64,000 nucleotides of DNA. It comes from Pirellulales bacterium (GTDB taxonomy: Bacteria > Planctomycetota > Planctomycetia > Pirellulales > JACPPG01). Position 1 is the first letter of the stretch, and every line of letters begins with the position of its first letter. Positions 5,231 to 58,273 of the stretch are shown here, in pieces. Where the stretch lies: positions 1-64,000 of the forward strand of contig DASZWQ010000017.1 in NCBI GenBank assembly GCA_035546535.1. The letters run 5' to 3'. Position numbers and translations under genes: made by a program. The notes under the pieces were generated by a model. It was not told the DNA's origin. It was given only the letters and a program-made list of their open reading frames with translations, and did no database searches.

Positions 5231-6031
5231 TCATTGCGGGTAGCTGCTGTCGACCGTCAGTACCACTTTGTCCGGGTACATATCCACGACCGCTGCATCC
5301 CAATCACGTGTCACGGCGTGCCCGTCCAGGTATAGGTAGTTGGCCAACCGCGCGTGCCGACGGTAAGCAATCCACGGCTGAATCGTCGACGTGCCCAGCC
5401 AGATGTCGTAATCATCCTGGCGCGGATCGCCGTCAGCGGGTGGCGTAAAAGCGTCCGCATCGCGTTCCGAAAAGCATACGAACTGGGACGTGCCGACTTC
5501 GTTCAAGAATCGCATCCACGTCCATCGTCCATAGCGCCGCGTTTTATGGCTTAGCAGCGAATTCATCAGGTAGCTGGTGCGCTGCGCGATGCCGTCGGTC
5601 ACGCCGCTACCATCAATGTACGGCTGCTGCTCCGACAGATCGCCGGGGCACCGGTAAATGGCCGCGCTGCCCGTCACGATGCCGGCGCGGGCCAATTCTT
5701 CATTGGCCTCAGGCGCGCCGCCAATCCAAGGCATGATCTTATCCTCCCAATAGATTTCGGCAAACGATTCCGAGGCGCCAGCCAGCGCCAGTACGTCGGC
5801 GTCGAAGGGGTGGTGGAGGAAGAACTGGCCATCGTAGGCGTCGTAATACTGTTGCGCGCCCAGCGCAATCTGATGCAGGTTCGACAGACATTGTGTCCGT
5901 CGCGATGCCTCCCGCGCCATTTGCACGGCGGGTAAGACGAGCGCGAGGAGAATACCAATGATAGCGACGACAACCAAAACTTCGACGAGCGTAAACGCCG
6001 ACCTCGCTTCGAAAGCGCTTTTCCTGAACAT
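5231..6031 (-). CDS. DUF1559 pseudopilin-like protein
   Basis: The N-terminus is a type IV prepilin/GspG-like leader and helix: [20 protein letters not shown], then [16 protein letters not shown]. That places the protein in the envelope after prepilin peptidase cleavage before the Phe. The DUF1559 body follows with the planctomycete pattern [19 protein letters not shown], and an [16 protein letters not shown] end that matches the H-X9-DG signature. I chose the ATG at 6031 because AGAGG lies eight bases upstream; a GTG (6040) and an ATG (6037) just ahead sit too close to it. It has 266 residues. The ligand or assembly partner is unknown. Confidence 0.9.
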
Positions 6032-6203
6032 GAACATCACCTCTTAGCATGCGTCGCGGTACCGCGATCTTACTGTTGTCCCATCGCGCTGGCAACGAGT
6101 GCGCAATGCTCGCACGTAAGCGGCCATGCCGTCGATCGTTGCGGCGCCATGGCGCGCTCCGCTCATCGAAAGCCGAGCAGCGCGAACGCCGGCCCCAGGG
6201 TCT

Positions 6204-7586
6204 TCACCCCGTCGCGGCGAGCCCCAACCAGCGGCGCACGCCAGGAATGCGCGAGAGCAACATTCGTTCGACAGCCAGGACCGCGAGCAGCGAACCACCG
6301 AACAACGGCAAGTAAACGCCGAGAAGAACAACGATGATGAACAGGCCCAGCGAAAAGCGCGGCGCCGCAAGGACCCGGGGTGCACCGAGCAACCCAGAAT
6401 CGCGGCGGCGCCACCACATGACGACGCCGGAAGTACAAATGAGAACCAATCCACAAGCCGTCAACAGCCCGAGCAACTGGTTGGCGATGCCAAAGAGTTG
6501 TCCTTCGTGCGCGGCGATGCCCGTGCCGATAATTCGATCGATCAGGTGCCGGTCTTGAAACTCTTCGCGGCTTTCGACGTCGCCCGTCGCGCCGTTCAGA
6601 ACCAGGTTGACGCGTCGCGTGCGGTCGGCGGCCATGGATTTGGCACTCCATTTCGCACCGTCTCGCCCGACGGGCGCGATAACAACCGGCGGAACCAATG
6701 CCAACGGCGCGACGGTCTTCGCAACGCGATCGACCGCCGTAAAATCGAGTGGCGCGCGCGGGCCGTTATCGGCGTCACCACGCCGACCTCCGTGCCCACC
6801 ATGGTCGCCGTGGCCCCCTAGGGGCGCTCGGGCCATCGTCCGCTCGCTACCGACCGTCCAATCTTGCTGCGCCACCGCGGTGCCGGTCAGCCGCCGGACA
6901 GCTTTCAAATAATTGCCCCACGACTTGGCCCACGGCAAACCGCTGAGCAGAAGAAAAAGCGCCATGCCCGAAATCCAGATGCCGGTTACGCTGTGCAGAT
7001 CGCGCCAGAAGATGCGCGACCCCGCGCGCAGACGCGGATAAAGCACGCCGCCCCCTCCCTTTGCCTGGCGCGGCCACCACAGATAAAGGCCCGTCAAGAT
7101 CATGACAATGGTCCACGAGGCGGCCAGTTCGACGACCATCGAGCCGCGATCGCCTGACCACAACTCGCCGTGCAAGCGAAAGATGTACCGCATGAATCGT
7201 TCGTCCTCGGGCACGGTGTGCAGAACCGCCAACGACGAAGGATGGACATAGACGCGTATTGCTTCGCCGTTGCGCCGCACAATCACTCGCGCGGCGTTTT
7301 CCGGGGCGGTTGGCAATTCATAGCCGCTGAATCTGGAATCAGGCACTGCTGCCAGCGCCGCGGCTATCTGCTCGGCAGCGCTGGCTCGCGTGCCGGTGAC
7401 TTCCAGGTGATCGTACGGCGCATCGATCCAGGCTTCGATCTGCGGCTTGAAGAGATAAATCGTTCCGCTGATCGAGAGCACGATCACGAACGGCACGCAC
7501 AGCAACCCGGCATAAAAATGCCAGCGCCATACGGCACGATAATCGGGCCATGTTTTGGAGGCGGTCGCCGGTTCGGTCTCATTCAT
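6204..7586 (-). CDS. PepSY-associated transmembrane protein with a His-rich insert
   Basis: This is a 460-residue inner-membrane protein of the PepSY-TM family, often linked to iron-siderophore reduction or metal uptake. Membrane helices lie at about 24-48, 150-172, 198-220, 373-397 and 412-445. WRWHFYAGLLCVPF and FRLHGELW carry the conserved histidines of the family, as do RDLHSVTGIW and AAHEGQLFG. An extracytoplasmic loop near residues 250-275 contains GGHGDHGGHGG, a His/Gly-rich stretch that looks like a metal-binding insert. The DUF1559 gene at 7630 lies 43 bases upstream on the same strand, which suggests one transcript. The substrate is unknown; iron or copper is an inference from family and context. 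Confidence 0.85.
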   Translation of the reverse strand: MNETEPATASKTWPDYRAVWRWHFYAGLLCVPFVIVLSISGTIYLFKPQIEAWIDAPYDHLEVTGTRASAAEQIAAALAAVPDSRFSGYELPTAPENAARVIVRRNGEAIRVYVHPSSLAVLHTVPEDERFMRYIFRLHGELWSGDRGSMVVELAASWTIVMILTGLYLWWPRQAKGGGGVLYPRLRAGSRIFWRDLHSVTGIWISGMALFLLLSGLPWAKSWGNYLKAVRRLTGTAVAQQDWTVGSERTMARAPLGGHGDHGGHGGRRGDADNGPRAPLDFTAVDRVAKTVAPLALVPPVVIAPVGRDGAKWSAKSMAADRTRRVNLVLNGATGDVESREEFQDRHLIDRIIGTGIAAHEGQLFGIANQLLGLLTACGLVLICTSGVVMWWRRRDSGLLGAPRVLAAPRFSLGLFIIVVLLGVYLPLFGGSLLAVLAVERMLLSRIPGVRRWLGLAATG

Positions 7587-7629
7587 GACGTTAGGGACTC
7601 ACTCGCGCTGGCTGCGCGCTTGCGAAAAA

Positions 7630-8694
7630 CTAAAAGGAACCGATGATCTCGTTGCCGTTACGGCTGTGCAGATTGCGATGCAGGACGGGGTCGGTCGCGT
7701 CACTCAGAAACCGCACCGAGCCGTCGCCGAGCAGCACGTTCGCCCCCCCGCTGTGCCAGCTGCGCGGGCCGAAATATCCGGAATGGTGCATGACGACCTC
7801 CGGGATGCGATTGTTGGGAGTCGTATAGCCGTTGGTCTGCGTGTTCAGCGCCCCCTCGGCTGCCCAGCAGGTGCCGCGACCGCGCAGGGCCGTGCTCCCT
7901 GCCCCGCGCCAACCGGTGAGTTGCACCCACACGGGCGCGAGATCCGGGTTGGCGATCATGCCGTTAATCGTGGGGCCCGTCCACGGCGCCCCGGTCATCG
8001 TGATTCCCGGACCGTTTCCGGGAGTCAGGCCCGTCGATCCATTGAGCGTGTATTGGTAAGGAAACCCGGGCGTCTGTCCGGGCGGCAGCGTCAAATCCTG
8101 ACCGATACTGCGAATCGCCTCGCTCATGAACACGGTGTTCGAGCTACCGTCCGAAACATCGGCGTAGCGCACCAGCGAGTTGTAGAACGTAATTCCGTCC
8201 GTGGGAAATCGCTGGTCGTACAAAATGCCGGTGCCGCTCCCGGTGCTGATCATGTAGTTGTTTCCCGCGTAGGTGGCGTTGTAGGTCGTCTCCGTATTGA
8301 CGACGTCGGCTGGATCGGTGGGACATAGTAAAAGCGGGATCGGCATGGCAAAGATTGCCGCAAACTTCGGATTGGGCACCTGCGCGTTGTAAGCTCCGGT
8401 GAAAGCGGGCTGACTGAAATCAAGCAGATTCTGCAGGTTGCCCTGCTCGACATACGGCAGCAACCGCGCTTGCGGCGAAAAGCCGTTCGGTGGATCGGTC
8501 GCGGGAAAGACGCCGCGTGCGCCCTCGAAATTAATCAGCGCCAGCCCGAGCTGCCGCATGTTGTTCTTGCATTGACTGCCGCGCGCGGCTTCGCGCGCCA
8601 TCTGCACGGCCGGCAAAAGCATACCGATCAGGATCCCAATGATGGCGATCACGACCAGCAGCTCGACTAGTGTAAATCCCCCACGGCGACTCAT
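7630..8694 (-). CDS. DUF1559 pseudopilin-like protein
   Basis: It has 354 residues from the ATG at 8694, which follows a GAGGGAG ribosome site and gives a clean prepilin leader [20 protein letters not shown]. An upstream in-frame extension to 8787 has no such support. The helix is followed by [20 protein letters not shown] and the DUF1559 domain, and the end [18 protein letters not shown] matches H-X9-DG. The first gene of a probable two-gene unit with the PepSY protein, it could be a surface or periplasmic scaffold for that membrane protein, but this is inference only. From family knowledge, planctomycetes encode many paralogues with no known function. Confidence 0.92.
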
Positions 8695-8966
8695 GATGAA
8701 CTCCCTCGTATTTGCAGACCTATTGCTGCGACGCAACGCATCAATCCTGTGGCGCAAGCACGCGTTTATCACTTGCACGACGCGCAAAGAGCACCATGGA
8801 CGCGGCCGTGTCCAGAAAGAATCAGGCGCCAGCGCGCGACGGCGCTGACCACGGCTACCGCGTGCGAAATTCGATCAGACCCATGACGCCGTGAACGTCG
8901 ACTGTAGGCGCGCAGGCGCAAGGATCCGGCCGCGTCTCGGCGCAGACCGCTCCCTGGACACAGGCG

Positions 8967-9704
8967 TCACGCCGAGGGGGGACGCGTGGGAGGAGAAGTG
9001 TCGAAAGATTCGACGAGACTTGTCACCAGTTCGACGCGGCCCCGCGAGCACCAGTCGTACTCGTAGCTCACGATTGCCGCTGGAGGCAGCGCGGAAAATG
9101 TGAGCACCGACCACGGCCCGAGGCCACGGCATTGACTAGCCAGAGGCCCGACGATGAACGCGATTTGCCAGCCCTGTGACTTTGCCAACTCGTGATCATC
9201 ATCATCATGCCCGTCGCCGACACATTCGTCGTCGTGGCAAGCGGCATGGTTCGCCATGTCGGCATGGTCGCACTTGGCACAGGCGTTCTTCTGCGCATCA
9301 CTCGCGGTCGAACGGCTGCAGCAAGCGCCATCATGCCGCTCACCGTCCGAGTGCTCAGCAAGCTCACCATGATCATGGTCACCGTCGAGCAAGGGTGGCG
9401 TCACTAACTCGTCAGCCACCTGGGCCAGTAGCTCCGCGGGCACCTCGATGTCGTTCGACCTGGCCCAGGCCAGCCGCTCGCGCGCCGAAAAGCAGCAGCA
9501 ACCACGGAGGCATTCGTCGGCCGACATGCAACCGCACGGACGATCCTGGCAGAGAAAGGGGCGGCTCTTGTCCTTGCCGCGCGGCCCGAGTGGACGCACG
9601 ACAGGCAAACCCGTGTTGGCCACGAGAAAGCCGATCAGCCCAAGGGCGACCGTTAATCGGCCACCGGCGCGAAGCACGGTGTGCATCGAGCGAAAGCATC
9701 GCAT
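8967..9704 (-). CDS. Cys/His-rich membrane-anchored protein, putative metal binding
   Basis: I recognise no named family. The 245-residue protein begins with one hydrophobic segment at about residues 16-36, a signal anchor, so the rest probably lies outside the cytoplasm. A first cluster, CQDRPCGCMSADECLRGCCC at about 52-71, has eight cysteines in 20 residues. A second region at about 107-170 is rich in His, Asp and Cys (DGDHDHGELAEHSDGERHDG, NACAKCDHADMANHAACHD, GHDDDDHEL). The C-terminus has a conserved-looking IAFIVGPLASQCRGLGPW. This composition points to binding soft or transition metals. It lies upstream of the DUF1559/PepSY pair, separated by 272 bases on the same strand, and is divergent from another DUF1559 gene. 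The start is the first of two close ATG codons. Confidence 0.75.
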   Translation of the reverse strand: MRCFRSMHTVLRAGGRLTVALGLIGFLVANTGLPVVRPLGPRGKDKSRPFLCQDRPCGCMSADECLRGCCCFSARERLAWARSNDIEVPAELLAQVADELVTPPLLDGDHDHGELAEHSDGERHDGACCSRSTASDAQKNACAKCDHADMANHAACHDDECVGDGHDDDDHELAKSQGWQIAFIVGPLASQCRGLGPWSVLTFSALPPAAIVSYEYDWCSRGRVELVTSLVESFDTSPPTRPPSA

Positions 9705-10047
9705 GCGGAAGCGCTCGGGCGGGGCTGAACAGGAGGGTCAAACTTTCCGGTCGAGTGTAAGTGTGCCGGACGGGCGTGTCAAACCTTGACCGTTGCGCGT
9801 CCGCCCGGGCCCCTGCTAGCGCCAGAACCTGAGGAGCACCAAGCAGTTCGACGAAATCTCTTTCGGTTGCCGTCGTGCAAGGATGCCTATGCCATTGGAT
9901 TGCCAGCAGCCGCAAAGCTGAATTAATCGATCAAGTTTAGCCGAAAGGAACAGTAGGACCACCGCGCCTCTCGGCGGAGCGCGTGGTGTCTGATCGCAAG
10001 CGGGCGATCGTGATCTTGGGGTGTTGCGGTTCAAGGAGGAACAGATC
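9705..10047. other. Divergent intergenic region, 343 bases
   Basis: It separates the minus-strand Cys/His-rich gene from the plus-strand DUF1559 gene, so promoters for both should lie here. The only site I can point to is the AAGGAGGA ribosome site of the DUF1559 gene (10033-10040). No convincing operator palindrome was seen by eye. Confidence 0.5.
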
Positions 10048-10998
10048 ATGAACATTTCACGCCGGGGCATGACGCTCGTCGAGCTTCTAGTGGTCATCGC
10101 GATTATTGGATTGCTCGTCGGCTTGATTCTGCCGGCCGTGCAGATGGCCCGCGAAGCAGGGCGCCGCGCCTCGTGCTTGAATAACCTCAAGCAGATCGGG
10201 CTGGCGCTGCACATGTATGCCGACCGCAATCTGGTATTTCCGCCAGGCTATATCTCGACGGTCTTACAACCAAGCCGGGATGACGGCGGCCCCGGTTGGG
10301 CCTGGGCCGCGATGCTGCTGCCTGACGTCGAGCAGAACTCGCTTAACCAGGAATTCAATTTCAAATCGCCCATCAATAGTGCGGCGAGCGACCCCGTGCG
10401 TACCGCCTCAGTGGCGCTGTTCGTTTGCCCTTCGGATGGCGCGTTCGAGCCAACCATCGAAATTCCGTCGCTGGCCGACAACTCGATCATCTGCACGATG
10501 GCCGCTTCAAGCTACGTCGCGAACATCGGCACCGTGCGTCCCACGTGTCGGGTCTGCCGCGACTCATTCGACGGCATGTTCGGACGCAATCGGGCTGTCA
10601 GCTTCGCCGAGATCTGCGACGGAACCTCGAACACGATGGCCATTGGCGAGCGCGCCTTCAAGTGGTCGACCCCCGCGTTATGGGGCGTGGTGCCTGGTTC
10701 GGAATTGGTCGATCGACTGATCGCGGGCCGATTGGCGGCCGGTCCCGGCTACGTGCTGGGAACGACGTTCAAGGATGGCTTCAACCTGGAAGAGATCGTC
10801 GACGATCCGCGCGAGGATCACTCGCTTGCCGAGTCGTTCGGGAGCATGCACCCGGGCGGCGCTAATTTCGCCTTTTGCGACGGCGGTGTGCGTTTCATCA
10901 AGGATACGATCGACCCTGCCGCCATGAACGCGCTCTCTACACGTTGCGGCACGCCCTACGGCGGCGAGACGATCCATTCCAGTCCGTTCGATCAATGA
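10048..10998 (+). CDS. DUF1559 pseudopilin-like protein
   Basis: The ATG at 10048 follows AAGGAGGA with a seven-base gap and gives 316 residues. The leader [20 protein letters not shown] has the prepilin peptidase site (Gly before Met; Met replaces the usual Phe at +1) and the conserved Glu at +5. [20 protein letters not shown] and [11 protein letters not shown] are typical of the family, as is the end [20 protein letters not shown]. Two Cys pairs (CRVC near 158-161 and further cysteines) may form disulfides. It is divergent from the Cys/His-rich gene and 52 bases upstream of mscL, so it could share a promoter with the channel. Confidence 0.92.
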
Positions 10999-50860: not shown

Positions 50861-50964
50861 TCGGCACTTGCGGAAAAACGCATAGGTTGGATTTGCCCCG
50901 CGGCGGGTGCCTGCGAGTTGCTGGCACGTGTCGCCCAACGCACGCATCCTGGGCTACCCACGTT

Positions 50965-51402
50965 ATGACGGCAAACGGCTGGCATTGGAGGACCGAGCAG
51001 GTCATTCCAAGCGATAACGGAGCCGGAAAAAAGGTTCTCGACGAGATCCTTGGGCAACTGGCCACCCACGACTGGGGACAGCGCGACATCTTTAGCGTGC
51101 ACCTGGCATTGGAAGAAGCCCTGGTCAACGCCATCAAGCACGGCAATGGCTGCGATATATCGAAGTCGGTACACGTGGTCTGCGAATTGACCAAGGATCG
51201 CCTGTTGGTGCAGATCGAGGACGAGGGACCGGGATTCGATCCCGACAATGTTCCCGATTGCACGGATGCGGATCGCTTGGAAATGCCCTGCGGCCGCGGC
51301 GTGCTCTTAATGCGCAGCTTCATGTCGAGCGTCGAGTTCCGCGATAAGGGGAACTGCGTCGTCATGACCAAGTGCCGCCAGGAAGGCGAAGACGCCGCCT
51401 GA
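50965..51402 (+). CDS. RsbW/SpoIIAB-type HATPase anti-sigma factor / serine kinase
   Basis: The ATG at 50965 gives 145 residues; the frame is open to a TTG at 50887. The GHKL ATP site is complete: N box HLALEEALVNAIKHGNGCDI near residue 60, G1 box VQIEDEGPGFDPDNVPD near 95, and the G2-like CGRGVLLMRSFMSSVEF near 118. It probably phosphorylates the adjacent STAS protein and holds a partner when not doing so. The target is unknown. It lies between the STAS gene and fae, and could share the STAS promoter. Confidence 0.92.
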   Translation: MTANGWHWRTEQVIPSDNGAGKKVLDEILGQLATHDWGQRDIFSVHLALEEALVNAIKHGNGCDISKSVHVVCELTKDRLLVQIEDEGPGFDPDNVPDCTDADRLEMPCGRGVLLMRSFMSSVEFRDKGNCVVMTKCRQEGEDAA

Positions 51403-51578: not shown

Positions 51579-52076
51579 ATGTCGATGTACGTTGGAGAAG
51601 CCCTGGTAGGCGAGGGAAATGAAATCGCCCATATCGATCTGTTGATCGGCTCGAAGGATGGGCCTGTCGGCACCGCGTTCGCCAACGCGCTGGCCACGCA
51701 AAGCGAAGGGCACACGAACCTGCTGGCCGTGCTCACGCCCAATATCGCCGTCAAGCCGTCGACCGTGCTGATCACCAAGGTCACGATCAAGGGCATGAAG
51801 CAGGCCGTGCAAATGTTCGGTCCCGCGCAGGCCGCCGTGGCCAAGGCCGTGGCCGACCAGGTGGCCGCCAACGTCATCCCCAAGAACCAGGCCGAACAGC
51901 TCGTGATCGTGTGCGGCGTGTTCATTCACCCGCAAGCCGAAGACGACAAGAAAATCTACGAGTTCAACTACGAAGCCACGAAGCAAGCGATCGCCGCGGC
52001 CCTGGCCAGCAAGCCCTCGGTCGACGAAGTGGTCGCCAACAAGGACTCGGCCAAGCATCCGTTCCGCGGCTTCTAA
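51579..52076 (+). CDS. fae: Formaldehyde-activating enzyme
   Basis: It condenses formaldehyde with tetrahydromethanopterin to methylene-H4MPT. The 165 residues match the Fae family: MYVGEALVGEGNEIAHIDLL with the catalytic His near residue 18, then IGSKDGPVGTAFANALATQS, IAVKPSTVLITKVTIKGMKQ and GPAQAAVAKAVADQVAANVI. The ATG at 51579 follows GGAG. mtdB, whose product acts next in the pathway, lies 144 bases downstream, with a strong hairpin between them. This pathway detoxifies or oxidises formaldehyde and is known in planctomycetes from the work of Chistoserdova and others. Confidence 0.96.
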   Translation: MSMYVGEALVGEGNEIAHIDLLIGSKDGPVGTAFANALATQSEGHTNLLAVLTPNIAVKPSTVLITKVTIKGMKQAVQMFGPAQAAVAKAVADQVAANVIPKNQAEQLVIVCGVFIHPQAEDDKKIYEFNYEATKQAIAAALASKPSVDEVVANKDSAKHPFRGF

Positions 52077-52220: not shown

Positions 52221-53084
52221 ATGAGCAAGCCTAATATCCTCGTCCAGCTCGATACCGACGAGCAACCGAGCGTGTTTGACTCGGTGGTGGCGATCGATGC
52301 CGGCGCCGAACATTTGCTGCGTCACCATGCGATCACGCCCGAGAATGTGCGCCAGCGCGTGCATGGCGCAATCTTCACGCGCGGGCCCGACGACCTGAAG
52401 CACACGGCGCTCTTTGTGGGTGGTTCCGACGTGGCTCGCGGCGAACAGGTGCTGGCCGCGATCGTCGCCTCGTTCATCGGCCCGTTGCGGACGTCGGTGA
52501 TGATGGATTCGGGCGGGGCGAACACCACGGCCGCTGCGGCCGTGCTGGCGGCGGCAAAACATGTTGATCTGGCTTCGACCGACGCTCTGGTGCTGGCCGC
52601 TACCGGGCCTGTCGGGCAGCGTGTGGCATGGTTGCTCGCGCAAGAAGGGGCCGCGGTACGCGTCGCCTCGAGGCGGCAAGAACGTGCCGCGGAGGTGGCA
52701 GCCCGCGTGCGCGACAAAACGGATTCGTCGCGACTGACCGCCTGGGGCATCAGTTCACCGGCTGAATTGGATATAGCGCTCGAAGGCGTGAATCTGGTGG
52801 TGGCCGCCGGCGCCGCTGGCGTCGAGCTGCTGCCGCAAGCGGCGATCGACCGCGCCAGGCAATTGCGCGTGGCCATCGATCTCAATGCCGTGCCGCCGCT
52901 AGGTATCGCCGGCGTCAAGGTGACCGATAAGGCGGTCGATCGCAAAAACGTCATCTATTACGGCGCGATCGGCGTGGGCGGCACGAAGATGAAAATTCAT
53001 AAAGCGGCGGTCAAGGCCCTGTTCGCGTCGAATGACCGCGTGCTGGATGCGCCAGAAATCTTCCAGATTGGCCGCGAGCTGTAA
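52221..53084 (+). CDS. mtdB: Methylene-tetrahydromethanopterin dehydrogenase, NAD(P)-dependent
   Basis: It oxidises methylene-H4MPT to methenyl-H4MPT with NAD(P), the step after Fae. It has 287 residues. The N-terminal domain reads ILVQLDTDEQPSVFDSVVAI with DAGAEHLLRHH and DVARGEQVLAAIVASFIGPL. MMDSGGANTTAAAAVLAAAK follows and the Rossmann strand ALVLAATGPVGQRVAWLLAQ near residue 126 binds the cofactor. GVEVLP-like and AIDLNAVPPLGIAGVKVTDK complete it. The remaining H4MPT genes (mch, fhc complex, cofactor synthesis) are not in this window. Confidence 0.95.
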   Translation: MSKPNILVQLDTDEQPSVFDSVVAIDAGAEHLLRHHAITPENVRQRVHGAIFTRGPDDLKHTALFVGGSDVARGEQVLAAIVASFIGPLRTSVMMDSGGANTTAAAAVLAAAKHVDLASTDALVLAATGPVGQRVAWLLAQEGAAVRVASRRQERAAEVAARVRDKTDSSRLTAWGISSPAELDIALEGVNLVVAAGAAGVELLPQAAIDRARQLRVAIDLNAVPPLGIAGVKVTDKAVDRKNVIYYGAIGVGGTKMKIHKAAVKALFASNDRVLDAPEIFQIGREL

Positions 53085-53145: not shown

Positions 53146-53670
53146 TCAGCGTTTCGACAAGTACAATAACACGCCCAGCGCCGCGACCAGGATCACGATT
53201 GATCCGACGAGCATCACGGCATTGGATATCGCGCGGCGCCGCACGCGTTCGTCATGCAGGACGCGTTCGGCCCGCCGCCCCGAACGATCGTCGGGGGTGA
53301 TTGCGTCGGCCTGCGAAAAGAGATCGACCACCTCGTTCGCGCCTGAAGGTGATCGCGACTGCGTCGACGTCGTCGGCATTGCCGCCGGCTGTGGCAAGTC
53401 GGCGTCGATGGCCGAGCTTTTCCCAGCGGCTTCGGTTTCCGGGGTAGTCTGCCAGAGCTTGGTTCTCGTCCCTTTGCGTTTGCCCGTCGGAACCGACCGC
53501 CTCAATTCCTCGACCGAAACCTCTTCGACGCCGGTCGCCGTGTCGTCCGGCGCTTGCGGCACCAGCAGCACATTGTCGCAGGCGGGGCAGATCGTTTGCT
53601 GACCCGCCTGGCTGGCGTCGACTTCCGAGACCGCACCACAAAAGGGGCAGCCAAATTGCAACACCGCCAC
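53146..53670 (-). CDS. Zinc-ribbon protein with a C-terminal membrane anchor
   Basis: It has 174 residues. A CxxC zinc ribbon is at the start: FGCPFCGAVSEVDASQAGQQ followed by TICPACDNVLLVPQ. The middle is a polar, Thr/Ser/Glu-rich stretch (about 40-130). A single membrane helix, ISNAVMLVGSIVILVAALGV, lies near the end with LLYLSKR after it, so it is tail-anchored with the ribbon in the cytoplasm. The function is unknown; planctomycetes carry many such proteins. It is divergent from the molybdopterin/pentapeptide gene with a 172-base gap. Confidence 0.8.
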   Translation of the reverse strand: MAVLQFGCPFCGAVSEVDASQAGQQTICPACDNVLLVPQAPDDTATGVEEVSVEELRRSVPTGKRKGTRTKLWQTTPETEAAGKSSAIDADLPQPAAMPTTSTQSRSPSGANEVVDLFSQADAITPDDRSGRRAERVLHDERVRRRAISNAVMLVGSIVILVAALGVLLYLSKR

Positions 53671-53842: not shown

Positions 53843-54874
53843 ATGGCTTCGACAAACCGACGGCTACCGCCGCGCCAGCAACTCGCAGCGCCGGGCAAAT
53901 GGCCCGCCGTGGGCGAACGTGCCGCTGTGGGGCCTGTCGGGCCCTGGCGCGTGGTCGTCGGCGGCGAGGTTGCTTCACCGCTGGATTTGTCTCTCGACCA
54001 GTTGCGGGCGCTGCCACGGGTCGAACGCACGATCGACATACACTGCGTGACGCGCTGGTCAAAACCGGAAATGCGTTTTGCCGGCGTGACACTGGCATGC
54101 CTTCTGGACATCGCGCGCCCGCATCCGGAGGCGAAGTTCGTGTCGTTCGTGGCCTACAGCGCCCGCAACCATAGCACTTCATTACCGCTCGCCGATGCGA
54201 TCGCGCTCGAGACGCTGATCGTTTGGGAATTTGATGGTGCGCCGCTGCCGGCCGAGCACGGCGGACCGGTACGCGTGGTGGTGCCAAGCCGGTATTTCTA
54301 CAAAAGTCTCAAATGGCTGCGGGCGATCGAAGTTCTGGCGATCGACAAGCCAGGCTATTGGGAAAGCGAAGCCGGCTATCACAACACCGGCGACCCGTGG
54401 CGCGAAGAGCGCTACATGGCGCCGCAACTGACGCGGCAGGAAATGCGGGCGGCGTTCGCCGCGCGCGATTCCTCAGGGCGCGATTTGCGCAGCATCGATG
54501 CACGCGGGCACGATCTCTCTGGGCTGCGCGCCCAAGGCGCGCTGTTACGAGATGCGAACTTCCAAGAGTGCCGCCTGGCCGGCGCGATCTTCGACGACGC
54601 GAACTTGAGCAACGCTCATTTTGCGGGCGCTGTTCTCGCGGGGGCGAGCTTTGCGCGGGCCGACGTCGAAGGAGCTGATTTCTCGGGCGCTGACCTCCGC
54701 GGGGCGAACTTCACCGGCGCCTCGCTCTTTGGGGTTACGTTTGGCGCCGTCGAGGCCGGGCAATCCTCCCGGCCCGCGATCGCTGACGCTACAACGCGGA
54801 TCGATGCCGCGGGGCTCGAAGCGCTCGTGCCGCTCCAGGCGCAGCTCATCCGGCGGCTTCTCGCCTGTGGATAA
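53843..54874 (+). CDS. Molybdopterin (sulfite-oxidase fold) domain fused to pentapeptide repeats
   Basis: It has 343 residues. Residues about 30-195 match the oxidoreductase molybdopterin-binding (sulfite oxidase/MsrP) fold: DIHCVTRWSKPEMRFAGVTL with the Cys that ligates molybdenum near residue 68, VVPSRYFYKSLKWLRAIEVL near 154, preceded by AEHGGPVRVV. A WESEAGYHNTGDPW motif follows. Residues about 215-300 are pentapeptide repeats (DLSGLRAQGALLRDANFQEC, ANLSNAHFAGAVLAGASFAR, ADLRGANFTGASLFG). No signal peptide is obvious. The repeats form a quadrilateral beta helix, perhaps a docking surface. I know of no named protein with this pairing. Confidence 0.88.
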   Translation: MASTNRRLPPRQQLAAPGKWPAVGERAAVGPVGPWRVVVGGEVASPLDLSLDQLRALPRVERTIDIHCVTRWSKPEMRFAGVTLACLLDIARPHPEAKFVSFVAYSARNHSTSLPLADAIALETLIVWEFDGAPLPAEHGGPVRVVVPSRYFYKSLKWLRAIEVLAIDKPGYWESEAGYHNTGDPWREERYMAPQLTRQEMRAAFAARDSSGRDLRSIDARGHDLSGLRAQGALLRDANFQECRLAGAIFDDANLSNAHFAGAVLAGASFARADVEGADFSGADLRGANFTGASLFGVTFGAVEAGQSSRPAIADATTRIDAAGLEALVPLQAQLIRRLLACG

Positions 54875-54884
54875 ATGCCCGCGC

Positions 54885-57374
54885 TCACCCCGCGGGCAGC
54901 GGATGTTTGAGCGCCGCCTCGGCCAACGGCGCAAGATCGTCCCTGGGTTCGCGATCGGCGAGCTCCTTCAAGAGCGCAATCGCCGCCGGGCTGCGCAAGC
55001 GCGCGAGCAAGGCCAACGCCCGACGCGCCGCCGTCGCGCGAATTGTATTGGAATCGGGCTTTTCCAACAGCAGCTTTTTGAGCCGCTGGACCCGTAGAGC
55101 CTCTTCGTCGGGGGCCGGCTTTCGGTGATTCTCCATCACGAATCTCGTGGCACGTAGCCGTTCACCCAATAACTGCAGGGCCACGTCCGGCTGTTCTTCT
55201 AAATCGCAAACGGCCTGATAGGCGCTCGCTATATCGTCTTCCGAGAGTCGACGCCAAAGCTCCTTAGGATCGGGTACTGGTCGGTGCTCGCCGCGACGCA
55301 AATCCCACACGTAGCCGACCCCATCGCTGCCGCCACTTAGGATCGTGCGGTTGTCATGGCCGAATGCCAGCGTGTACACGTAACTTTCGTGGCGGCCCAC
55401 GTCCATGACCTTCAGGCCGGATTGGGCGTCCCACAATTCAACCTGGCCAGCCATACTGCCGGTGGCCAGATAGAGACCGTCCGGTGAGAAACTCAGAGCA
55501 CCAAATACGAATCGGCCCTTCACCTGGAGAGTCGCGTGCGGCGTCATCTCAGGTAGTTTCCACAGTCGGACCTTACCGTCGAGTTGCGCCGTGGCAAGAA
55601 GATCACCCGCTGGTGAGTAGCAAACGGTGTACATACGCACGTCGCCGCCATCACCGCCAGCTTTCGTGGCCCTCTGCTCCTCGCCTGTATCGGCGTTCCA
55701 GAAGCGGACCATTTTGTCCCAGCCGGCCGTGGCCAGGGTCTTGCCGTCGGGGTTGAACGACAGGCCGTAAATTTGCGAATGCTCGATTTCGGCGATTTCC
55801 TTTTCCGCGTCGACGTCCCACAGGTACGCGGCATGCTGGCGAAAGACCGCACCGGCAAGTCGGCGATTGTCGGGCGTGAAATCGAGGCATTCGATGGTCG
55901 AGTACGGATCCGCGCCTTTCGGCCAGGTCCAGCGCCTGTGGACCTCGCCTGTGGCGGCATCGAAGATCAACGCGCGAACATCGTCATGGACGGTGCCGCC
56001 GGCGGCTAACAATCGACTATCGGGCGAAAAGCGCAATTGCGAGAAGGTCATCCCGTCTTCGTGCAACGCACGCAGTTCCTGTCCCTCGTCCGCGCTGACC
56101 AGGTGCAGGGTGCCACCGCCGCCGGCAAAGGCGACCGTCCGGCCGTCGGGCGACATCGTCACGACCGAGCTGCCGCGCGTGCCCACAGGCAGCGGCAATT
56201 GCTTGCGCGCGTCGACGTCCCAGCGACGGATGGCCGAATCCCAGCCCGACGAGTACAGCAACTTGCCGTCGGTCGAAAAAGCCAGTGCCCAGGGCTTGGA
56301 CGTGTGGCCGTCGAGCGTGCCGATTTCTTCGCCGGTCGCGGCAGTTAGCAGATGCAGCTTGTCGTCCGTCGCAGCGGCTACGAGGAATTCGCCGCGGGGA
56401 TGAAAAGCGACCGCGGAGGTGTAGTTCTCATAAGGATTGTCCAGGTTCAGGACCCGCGACCAGACTTCCTGGCCGGTCGCCACGTCATAGAGTCGCACGG
56501 CGCGATCGCGCTCGGTGGTAACCAGCCGCGTGCCGTCGGGCGAGAAATCGAGCCGCACCATCCACGCCTGCAACTGCACGCGCCGCAGCTCTGCTCCCGT
56601 CGCAGCTTCGAGCAACCTTAGCTCGTCCGGCTTTTCGCTCAGCACGACGGCCAGTGTCTTGCCGTCGGGTGAGAATCGCACGAAGCTGAAATGTCCCCCG
56701 AACGCCAGGCGATCGCTGTTCTTGTCGTTGCCGCGGGCTTTCGCGGCGGACAGCAGATCGGTAAAGCCACGGTTGGGAACCGTGTAGAGAATCTTTCCGT
56801 CGCGGCCTGCCACGACCACACCGCGCGCGGTTCCGTAAGCGAAAAGCTCGCCGTTTCCCGCGACGTCGATGGCCCGGCACTCGCTGGGTGTGGTCCGCTC
56901 GACCGGTGCCCCTTGTAAATCTGCATCCGGCTTGAGCGTCATCTGTCGACAACTGCCGTCGAGATCCCATACGAGGAGGTCGTCGCGTTCCCCCGGCGTA
57001 TAGAAATGCTGGCCATCGGCCGCAAAGCAGACCGTGCGACAGCCATAAGAAGACATACTGTGGAAATAGGCCAACGCCGGCTTGCGAAAGCGTTGTTTGC
57101 CGGTATCCGTATCCCAGATGATCAACTGTTCGCCGATCGAGACCAGCGTCTTGCCGTCGGGCGAGAGAGCCAGATCGGAAACGCTGGATGGAGGCCGAAA
57201 GCGCACCGTGCCCAGACGCAAACGCGCGCCGTTCGGCAGCGGGTCGCCCAGCGCATCGACCCGCGGTGCAGGACGCGTTTCTTCCGCCGCACAGCTCGGA
57301 AAAGGGGCGAACCATAAAGCCAGGCAGACGGCGACGACGTTCCGTCGGCTGGCGTCTTGAACGCGCGATCGCAT
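54885..57374 (-). CDS. Exported WD40-repeat protein
   Basis: The ATG at 57374 follows AGGAGGGGG and gives 829 residues. A signal peptide (NVVAVCLALWFAPFPSCAAE) precedes the motif DPLPNGARLRLGTVRFRPPS that introduces planctomycete WD40 propellers. About ten WD40-like repeats follow, each with LAFSxDGKxLxSxGxDxxVRxWD; examples are LALSPDGKTLVSIGEQLIIW, LSFNPDGKTLATAGWDKMVR and LAFGHDNRTILSGGSDGVGY. The C-terminal 130 residues are helical, with ALQLLGERLRATRF and RRALALLARLRSPAAIALLK. It is a scaffold; partners unknown. It lies 35 bases downstream of the hydrolase gene on the same strand. Confidence 0.9.
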   Translation of the reverse strand: MRSRVQDASRRNVVAVCLALWFAPFPSCAAEETRPAPRVDALGDPLPNGARLRLGTVRFRPPSSVSDLALSPDGKTLVSIGEQLIIWDTDTGKQRFRKPALAYFHSMSSYGCRTVCFAADGQHFYTPGERDDLLVWDLDGSCRQMTLKPDADLQGAPVERTTPSECRAIDVAGNGELFAYGTARGVVVAGRDGKILYTVPNRGFTDLLSAAKARGNDKNSDRLAFGGHFSFVRFSPDGKTLAVVLSEKPDELRLLEAATGAELRRVQLQAWMVRLDFSPDGTRLVTTERDRAVRLYDVATGQEVWSRVLNLDNPYENYTSAVAFHPRGEFLVAAATDDKLHLLTAATGEEIGTLDGHTSKPWALAFSTDGKLLYSSGWDSAIRRWDVDARKQLPLPVGTRGSSVVTMSPDGRTVAFAGGGGTLHLVSADEGQELRALHEDGMTFSQLRFSPDSRLLAAGGTVHDDVRALIFDAATGEVHRRWTWPKGADPYSTIECLDFTPDNRRLAGAVFRQHAAYLWDVDAEKEIAEIEHSQIYGLSFNPDGKTLATAGWDKMVRFWNADTGEEQRATKAGGDGGDVRMYTVCYSPAGDLLATAQLDGKVRLWKLPEMTPHATLQVKGRFVFGALSFSPDGLYLATGSMAGQVELWDAQSGLKVMDVGRHESYVYTLAFGHDNRTILSGGSDGVGYVWDLRRGEHRPVPDPKELWRRLSEDDIASAYQAVCDLEEQPDVALQLLGERLRATRFVMENHRKPAPDEEALRVQRLKKLLLEKPDSNTIRATAARRALALLARLRSPAAIALLKELADREPRDDLAPLAEAALKHPLPAG

Positions 57375-57409
57375 GAGCCCCCTCCTGGCGCGGCGTGCCT
57401 CGCACGACT

Positions 57410-58273
57410 TCATTTCTTGTCGTTGCTCTTATCGTTGGCGTCGAGGAACGCCACGAGCTCGTCGATGTATTCGCGCGGAATATACCCGGCCATGATCGCC
57501 GTCAAGTGCGACTTGCCGGGAAGCACGACGCCTTTGAAATTCTTCAGCTCGCGTTGCATCCGCGCGGTCTTGGCGTTCGGTCCGTCGAACTCGCCATTGA
57601 TCGCCAGGACCGGGACGGTGACGATCGTAAGATCGATCTTCGAGCGCTCCTCGGGTTTCCACGGATATTGCCGCACGGCTGCCAGCGCCTCTTCGTCGCG
57701 ATCGGGGTGATGCGATAGTTTCTCGCGCGCTTCGGCTTCTTGCGGGTCGGGGCCTGGCTTATCGGCGGGCGTCTTTTCTTTCCACGCGGGATCAACCTCC
57801 GGAATGCCTGATCCGCCGAACGATGCCGTAATGAATCGCTCGGGATGTTTTGCCAGTAGTTGGCCTGTAATCGCGCCGCCCATGGAATAGCCGTGGATGT
57901 GCGCTTTGGGAATCTTCAAATGGTCCATCAATTCGATTACGTCGCGGGCCATGGCCGGCCCGTATTTATCGGCGTCGTGCGGCTTGTCGCTGTTGCCGTG
58001 GCCGCGGCAATCGATGGCAATGACCCAATGATTCTTGGCCAATGCCTCGGCCACGCCGTTAGTGAACCAGTTGCCGCGTGCCGTGCCGGTGTAACCGTGG
58101 ATCAGAACTACGGGATTGCCAGTGGCCGTCTCGCGTCCTGCTTCGATGTAATGAATCTTCAAGCTGTCGGACGTCTGGAAGTAGCCGTCGGTGCCCTCCA
58201 CGCCCCAGGAGAACAGCGCCCGGTTCGCGGCTAAGACGAATACCAAGGCAGGCAGAATCGCGCGCAAGATCAT
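57410..58273 (-). CDS. Exported alpha/beta hydrolase
   Basis: The ATG at 58273 follows GGGAGGCGTGGCC; a GTG six bases earlier abuts the ribosome site and is less likely. It has 287 residues with a signal peptide (LRAILPALVFVLAANRALFS). The oxyanion loop is PVVLIHGYTGTARGNWF, the nucleophile elbow IHGYSMGGAITGQLL with Ser near 131, and the acid VLAINGEFDGPNAK with the base VLPGKSHLTAIMAG. The substrate is unknown; this class includes many planctomycete hydrolases near WD40 genes. It is first in a probable operon with the WD40 protein. Confidence 0.9.
   Translation of the reverse strand: MILRAILPALVFVLAANRALFSWGVEGTDGYFQTSDSLKIHYIEAGRETATGNPVVLIHGYTGTARGNWFTNGVAEALAKNHWVIAIDCRGHGNSDKPHDADKYGPAMARDVIELMDHLKIPKAHIHGYSMGGAITGQLLAKHPERFITASFGGSGIPEVDPAWKEKTPADKPGPDPQEAEAREKLSHHPDRDEEALAAVRQYPWKPEERSKIDLTIVTVPVLAINGEFDGPNAKTARMQRELKNFKGVVLPGKSHLTAIMAGYIPREYIDELVAFLDANDKSNDKK

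Follow-up and report, generated by a model that had tools for sequence, protein, structure and literature searches.

The window, i.e. the whole stretch of 64,000 nucleotides analysed here, contains a gene for a two-part protein of 343 amino acids, further referred to as the fusion protein. This gene and its upstream neighbours are located as follows.

51579–52076, + strand: Fae, formaldehyde-activating enzyme, upstream neighbour; the start is inferred (PF08714, E = 5e-72 at 51591–52064)
52221–53084, + strand: methylene-tetrahydromethanopterin dehydrogenase, MtdC/MtdB-like, upstream neighbour (PF09176, E = 6e-29)
53146–53670, − strand: small protein, zinc-ribbon-like pattern at the N terminus, hydrophobic segment at the C terminus (sub-threshold zinc-ribbon matches)
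53843–54874, + strand: fusion gene, 343 amino acids, SUOX-fold molybdopterin domain followed by a pentapeptide-repeat beta-helix (ORF, Pfam, AlphaFold2)

A gene for an 842-aa WD40 repeat protein (54885–57413, − strand) is convergent with the fusion gene, with a gap of 10 nt between them. The product of another ORF, at 50887–51402, looks by eye like an anti-sigma/HATPase regulator.

Reading frame and N terminus of the fusion gene

The ORF begins with ATG and has zero internal stops. Only 13 codons, NFCAASRTLCTRT, separate this ATG from an in-frame upstream TAG, so that acquisition of a Tat or Sec signal via an earlier start is impossible; a Tat signal from an upstream start, considered as a candidate, was rejected because of this stop. 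The start of the homologues coincides with the conserved LPPxQ motif (residues 8–12 of the fusion protein), which opens a longer conserved segment.

53864–53917, + strand: N-terminal motif LPPxQ...KWPxVGE, residues 8–25, conserved and too close to the start for a signal peptide

The sequence-only reading had described a SUOX domain fused to pentapeptide repeats and lacking a signal peptide. Both statements hold: the fusion is seen in the Pfam matches, in homologues spanning both domains and in the AlphaFold2 model, and the lack of a signal follows from the in-frame stop and the conserved N-terminal motif. It also proposed to look for a Tat signal under another start and for the same architecture elsewhere. 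With 13 upstream codons no such signal can exist, and the architecture recurs in over 90 non-redundant homologues, representing about 12 phyla, with the order of the two domains kept and a tail of 136–176 residues. The joining of two genes by a sequencing error was ruled out, since full-length two-domain homologues occur in many phyla. On sequence grounds, a cytoplasmic location of the fusion protein is well supported, and this part of the earlier suggestion of a cytoplasmic reaction or a docking role stands; a docking role of the helix would fit the conserved face described below. For contrast, an exported-type relative is represented in this genome by the paralogue L003, with the motif RRSFLK close to its N terminus.

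Predicted cofactor site, structure model and the conserved helix face

The following elements were delineated within the fusion gene.

53942–54361, + strand: SUOX-fold molybdopterin domain, residues 34–173 (PF00174, Z about 20)
54044–54046, + strand: codon of Cys68, which corresponds in the alignment to the Mo-ligating Cys of MsrP and to C185 of chicken sulfite oxidase
54362–54421, + strand: linker motif E-x(4)-YHN-x-GDPWREERYM, residues 174–193, common to free-standing cytoplasmic relatives
54464–54742, + strand: pentapeptide-repeat beta-helix, residues about 208–300 (PF00805, strand ladder in the model)
54806–54871, + strand: C-terminal helices, residues 322–342, capping the beta-helix; L328, Q332 and an aromatic or hydrophobic residue at 335 are conserved

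The Pfam scan of the fusion protein yielded only PF00174 and pentapeptide-type families, with no heme or FAD domain. The Oxidored_molyb family (PF00174) matched residues 34–173 with E = 1.2e-36 and 126.3 bits (cut-off 24), and Pentapeptide (PF00805) scored 78.5 bits (cut-off 20.2). The C-terminal SUOX dimerisation domain gave no Pfam match, and the beta-helix stands in its place. The whole chain was modelled by AlphaFold2 from an alignment of 74 unchanged homologues (pLDDT 94.3, pTM 0.89). The best Foldseek match of the first domain was MsrP (1xdy/1xdq, E = 5e-14). VIA-align comparison of this domain gave Z of 19–21 with SorA (up to 20.9), SoxC, MsrP and chicken sulfite oxidase, and 17–21 over the sulfite oxidases and dehydrogenases including SorT; residues about 207–342 reached Z of about 19 with the pentapeptide proteins 2g0y/2f3l and At2g44920. 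No solved chain among the listed structure matches covered both domains together.

Cys68 is invariant across the 74 aligned sequences, as are V69, T70, W72, H110, R144, the segment Y151–W158 (including K154, S155 and K157), G171, W173 and E174. The Mo-ligand Cys thus stands in surroundings usual for cofactor binding. In MsrP the counterpart of the Cys68 region is RMRCVEAWS. The Moco biosynthesis families MoaA (Mob_synth_C) and MoaE were found in the same genome. From these sequence features we infer binding of Mo-molybdopterin by the fusion protein. Catalysis by it as a cytoplasmic Moco enzyme is likely, and the fusion protein is quite probably a cytoplasmic single-subunit Moco oxidoreductase in which the beta-helix replaces the usual C-terminal dimerisation domain. 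A small cytosolic substrate would undergo two-electron oxygen-atom transfer at the Mo-molybdopterin held by Cys68; the conserved face of the helix may pack on the catalytic domain or dock an electron-transfer partner.

This helix shares the beta-helix and the C-terminal helical cap with Rfr32, At2g44920, HetL and Qnr (Z of 15–19 over residues about 207–342); unlike these stand-alone pentapeptide proteins, it is joined to a redox enzyme and has one conserved face. Selective conservation is confined to one of its four faces, with the outward residues R/K236, N254, S/T256, D274 and E276. The mean information on this face is 2.73 bits vs 1.6–1.9 bits on the other faces (permutation p = 0.0015; corrected for the four faces, about 0.006). 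The difference suggests that this face makes contact with the protein's own catalytic domain, a second copy or a partner. A tentative alternative, to which we give less than even chances, is that the beta-helix is a structural cap or a dimerisation element replacing the SUOX dimerisation domain and docks no partner. It concerns the helix only and is compatible with the enzymatic reading. The helix does occupy the place of the dimerisation domain after the catalytic domain, and the C-terminal helices past it are conserved. The preservation of polar surface residues on one face across phyla argues against this alternative, although such conservation would also be expected if the face packed on the protein's own catalytic domain or served in dimerisation.

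A sharper version of the preferred reading, i.e. of the cytoplasmic Moco oxidoreductase, would make the fusion protein an MsrP-like S-oxide reductase of the cytoplasm that repairs oxidised sulfur compounds or methionine sulfoxide and whose helix recruits substrate proteins or an electron donor. MsrP (YedY) is the closest solved structure both by Foldseek and by sequence, with the SUOX fold and an aligned catalytic Cys, and the pocket sequence CVTRWS is nearer to CVEAWS of MsrP than to the CAG.. motif of sulfite oxidases. A cytoplasmic homologue from Deinococcus has been suggested, so far without a test, as a possible MetO reductase (PMC8945050). However, MsrP is Tat-exported and works with the heme partner MsrQ, whereas the fusion protein has no signal, carries a beta-helix tail and has no MsrQ-like partner gene seen near its gene. 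Moreover, the NCBIfam MsrP model scored only 69.6 bits (cut-off 207), and the Glu two residues past the Cys in MsrP is replaced by the invariant Thr70. On balance we consider such a reductase possible but unlikely.

Distribution and relatives of the fusion protein

The homologue search retained 80 loci with relatives, nearly all of them with both domains. Judging by the titles of their records, these loci come from members of Planctomycetota, Myxococcota, Pseudomonadota, Acidobacteriota, Chloroflexota, Actinomycetota, Verrucomicrobiota, Calditrichota, Latescibacterota, Zixibacteriota, Binatota and Fraserbacteria; most homologues come from MAGs, and hence single phylum assignments can be wrong. 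Named records other than MAGs, again by title, include Sessilibacter corallicola C21 and Rhodopirellula sp. JC639. Among plasmids of the collection searched, none had query coverage of at least 80%, and the best matches were of the free-standing type. In the phylum-wide profile search few candidates were scored in each genome; the resulting counts are lower bounds and were left unused.

In the tree of first domains, fusions form a single clade (SH-aLRT 95), whose only seemingly unfused member, L084, is truncated by the end of its contig. The C-terminal tail comprises 136–176 aa in fusions vs 0–12 aa in free-standing relatives. The clade adjoins 13 free-standing signal-less proteins, with other paralogues of the sulfite-oxidase family outside. 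The free-standing relatives are under-sampled because sampling started from the fused protein. Nine positions tell fusions from free-standing proteins, among them H110, Y153, S106, R108 and S113. His is found at position 110 in 130 fusions, compared with Trp, Phe or Tyr in the free-standing relatives, and Tyr153 of the fusions corresponds to Trp.

The sulfite-oxidase family includes a group of uncharacterised, single-subunit, cytoplasmic enzymes (PMC7759655). Contrary to the earlier assumption, lack of a signal is therefore nothing exceptional in this family. Like the enzymes of this cytoplasmic group (group 3 of the family), the fusion protein lacks a signal, contains neither a heme nor a FAD domain and has no redox partner gene conserved beside its own; judging by sequence, it probably belongs to this poorly studied branch. 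Among its relatives, the YuiH-type 'sulfite oxidase-like oxidoreductases' share with it a PF00174-type domain, the LPPGQ start, HCVTRWS and GYHNxGDPWxEERY, as well as the lack of a signal peptide and of any extra redox domain; identity is 40–43% over about 185 residues. In contrast to the fusion clade, which continues with beta-helix and cap for about 150 aa, they end soon after GYHNxGDPWxEERY, and they have an aromatic residue and Trp where the clade has H110 and Y153.

We found no description of a fusion with pentapeptide repeats in the open-access literature, and apparently this two-part protein was not studied before; it is a new architecture among molybdoenzymes of a kind that is known but uncharacterised. 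Given that the absence of a signal is not unusual in the sulfite-oxidase family, it is the beta-helix and the clade-specific H110, Y153 and R108 that set the fusion apart. The clade provides the uncharacterised cytoplasmic enzymes of this family with a distinctive and widespread architecture, and its specific residues and conserved helix face are handles for mutation and partner tests.

Gene neighbourhood and possible reactions

The genes fae and mtdC belong to the tetrahydromethanopterin C1 pathway. In the window, mtdC and the fusion gene are separated by 758 nt and by the zinc-ribbon-like gene on the opposite strand, which makes co-transcription less likely here than in relatives with close gaps. 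In six of these (L021, L028, L035, L090, L101 and L102) mtdC stands immediately before the fusion, with 9–37 nt from the mtdC stop to the fusion start; in several relatives it thereby takes the place between fae and the fusion. Similar zinc-ribbon-like genes lie beside the fusion gene in L087, L013, L038, L039 and L023; this gene recurs next to the fusion in planctomycetes even where no fae was found in the locus (L013, L039, L023).

We surveyed 197 genomes of the planctomycete order, 27 with the fusion and 146 with fae. All 27 fusion genomes contain fae. In 13 of the 27 it is located about 1–3 kb upstream of the fusion on the same strand (G000, G001, G005, G008, G017, G024, G040, G047, G052, G053, G332, G400 and G439), and these genomes span six families (f1, f2, f5, f13, f14 and f16). 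In the other 14, fae resides elsewhere or on another contig, and hence the linkage may be inherited synteny. The fusion is present in 27/146 fae-positive vs 0/51 fae-negative genomes of the order (Fisher p = 2e-4), which is weak evidence because many fae-negative genomes fall in few lineages and fusions of other phyla occur without fae. Indeed, in a separate sample of 27 fusion genomes, mostly from other phyla, only two have fae, both of them planctomycetes. The link is therefore lineage-specific, and the general reaction of the fusion cannot be read from it.

In one genome, a match to residues 39–112 (45%) at G033:C273:4161–4382, − strand, runs through one TAG and looks like a decayed fusion gene. 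It follows fae, which has the same orientation, at a distance of about 1.7 kb, in the usual slot of the fusion.

The association with fae in planctomycetes is due to shared ancestry, function or both. In several lineages of the order, the fusion gene, fae and mtdC are probably expressed together, so that the fusion protein may work in or near formaldehyde/C1 metabolism or the associated sulfur stress metabolism. The gene order, newly seen here, gives a first metabolic hint for the cytoplasmic enzymes of the family.

One reaction to be considered in this context is that of a cytoplasmic sulfite oxidase or dehydrogenase that removes sulfite, in planctomycetes possibly sulfite bound in an adduct to the formaldehyde on which Fae and MtdC act. 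The position of the fusion gene behind fae and mtdC would suit this role, and the SUOX fold is shared with SorA (the Z of 20.9 mentioned above), SorT, SoxC and chicken sulfite oxidase. Tyr179, six residues past W173, lies near the position of Tyr322 of the chicken enzyme, the register being inferred. On the other hand, the fusion protein differs from sulfite oxidases and dehydrogenases in having no dimerisation domain, no heme and no equivalent of R190, the Arg five residues past the Mo-ligand Cys in the chicken enzyme. Ser73 occupies this position (87% Ser), and another sulfite-binding Arg, R450, is missing together with the dimerisation domain. Both differences disfavour a canonical sulfite oxidase. 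The NCBIfam models for SorA, SorT and SoxC scored 47, 29 and 54 bits, respectively, far below their cut-offs of 600, 570 and 420. Overall, we regard this reaction as unlikely, more so than S-oxide reduction.

It is improbable that the fusion clade represents a separate cytosolic Moco enzyme that catalyses a reaction of its own. In planctomycetes, such an enzyme would act jointly with Fae and MtdC on a compound arising from formaldehyde chemistry, e.g. a formaldehyde-sulfite adduct or another C1-sulfur compound, and its helix face would dock an electron acceptor or the C1 enzymes. More improbable still is a non-catalytic pterin sensor similar to PruR, with the helix as a signalling module, perhaps for methanopterin-type pterins near fae and mtdC. 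PruR shares the SUOX fold (Z of about 14.7), and the neighbours in the window come from a pterin-dependent pathway. However, PruR proteins are secreted and have no Mo-ligating Cys (PMC13259868), whereas the fusion protein has no signal and its Cys68 is invariant, which makes a sensor of this kind unlikely.

Among the neighbours of the fusion gene across phyla, no conserved gene for an electron-transfer or redox partner was found. By eye, they are a scattered set including two-component regulators, cation-efflux-like proteins and PhyH-like dioxygenases. In Nevskia-type loci (L040, L063 and L066) a gene for a cation-efflux-like membrane protein lies closely downstream of the fusion, and in candidate-phylum loci (L057, L058 and L082) genes of PhyH-like dioxygenases are located upstream on the same strand, both observations being made by eye. 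Elsewhere in the window, at 5231–10998, the products of several ORFs begin with prepilin-like motifs.
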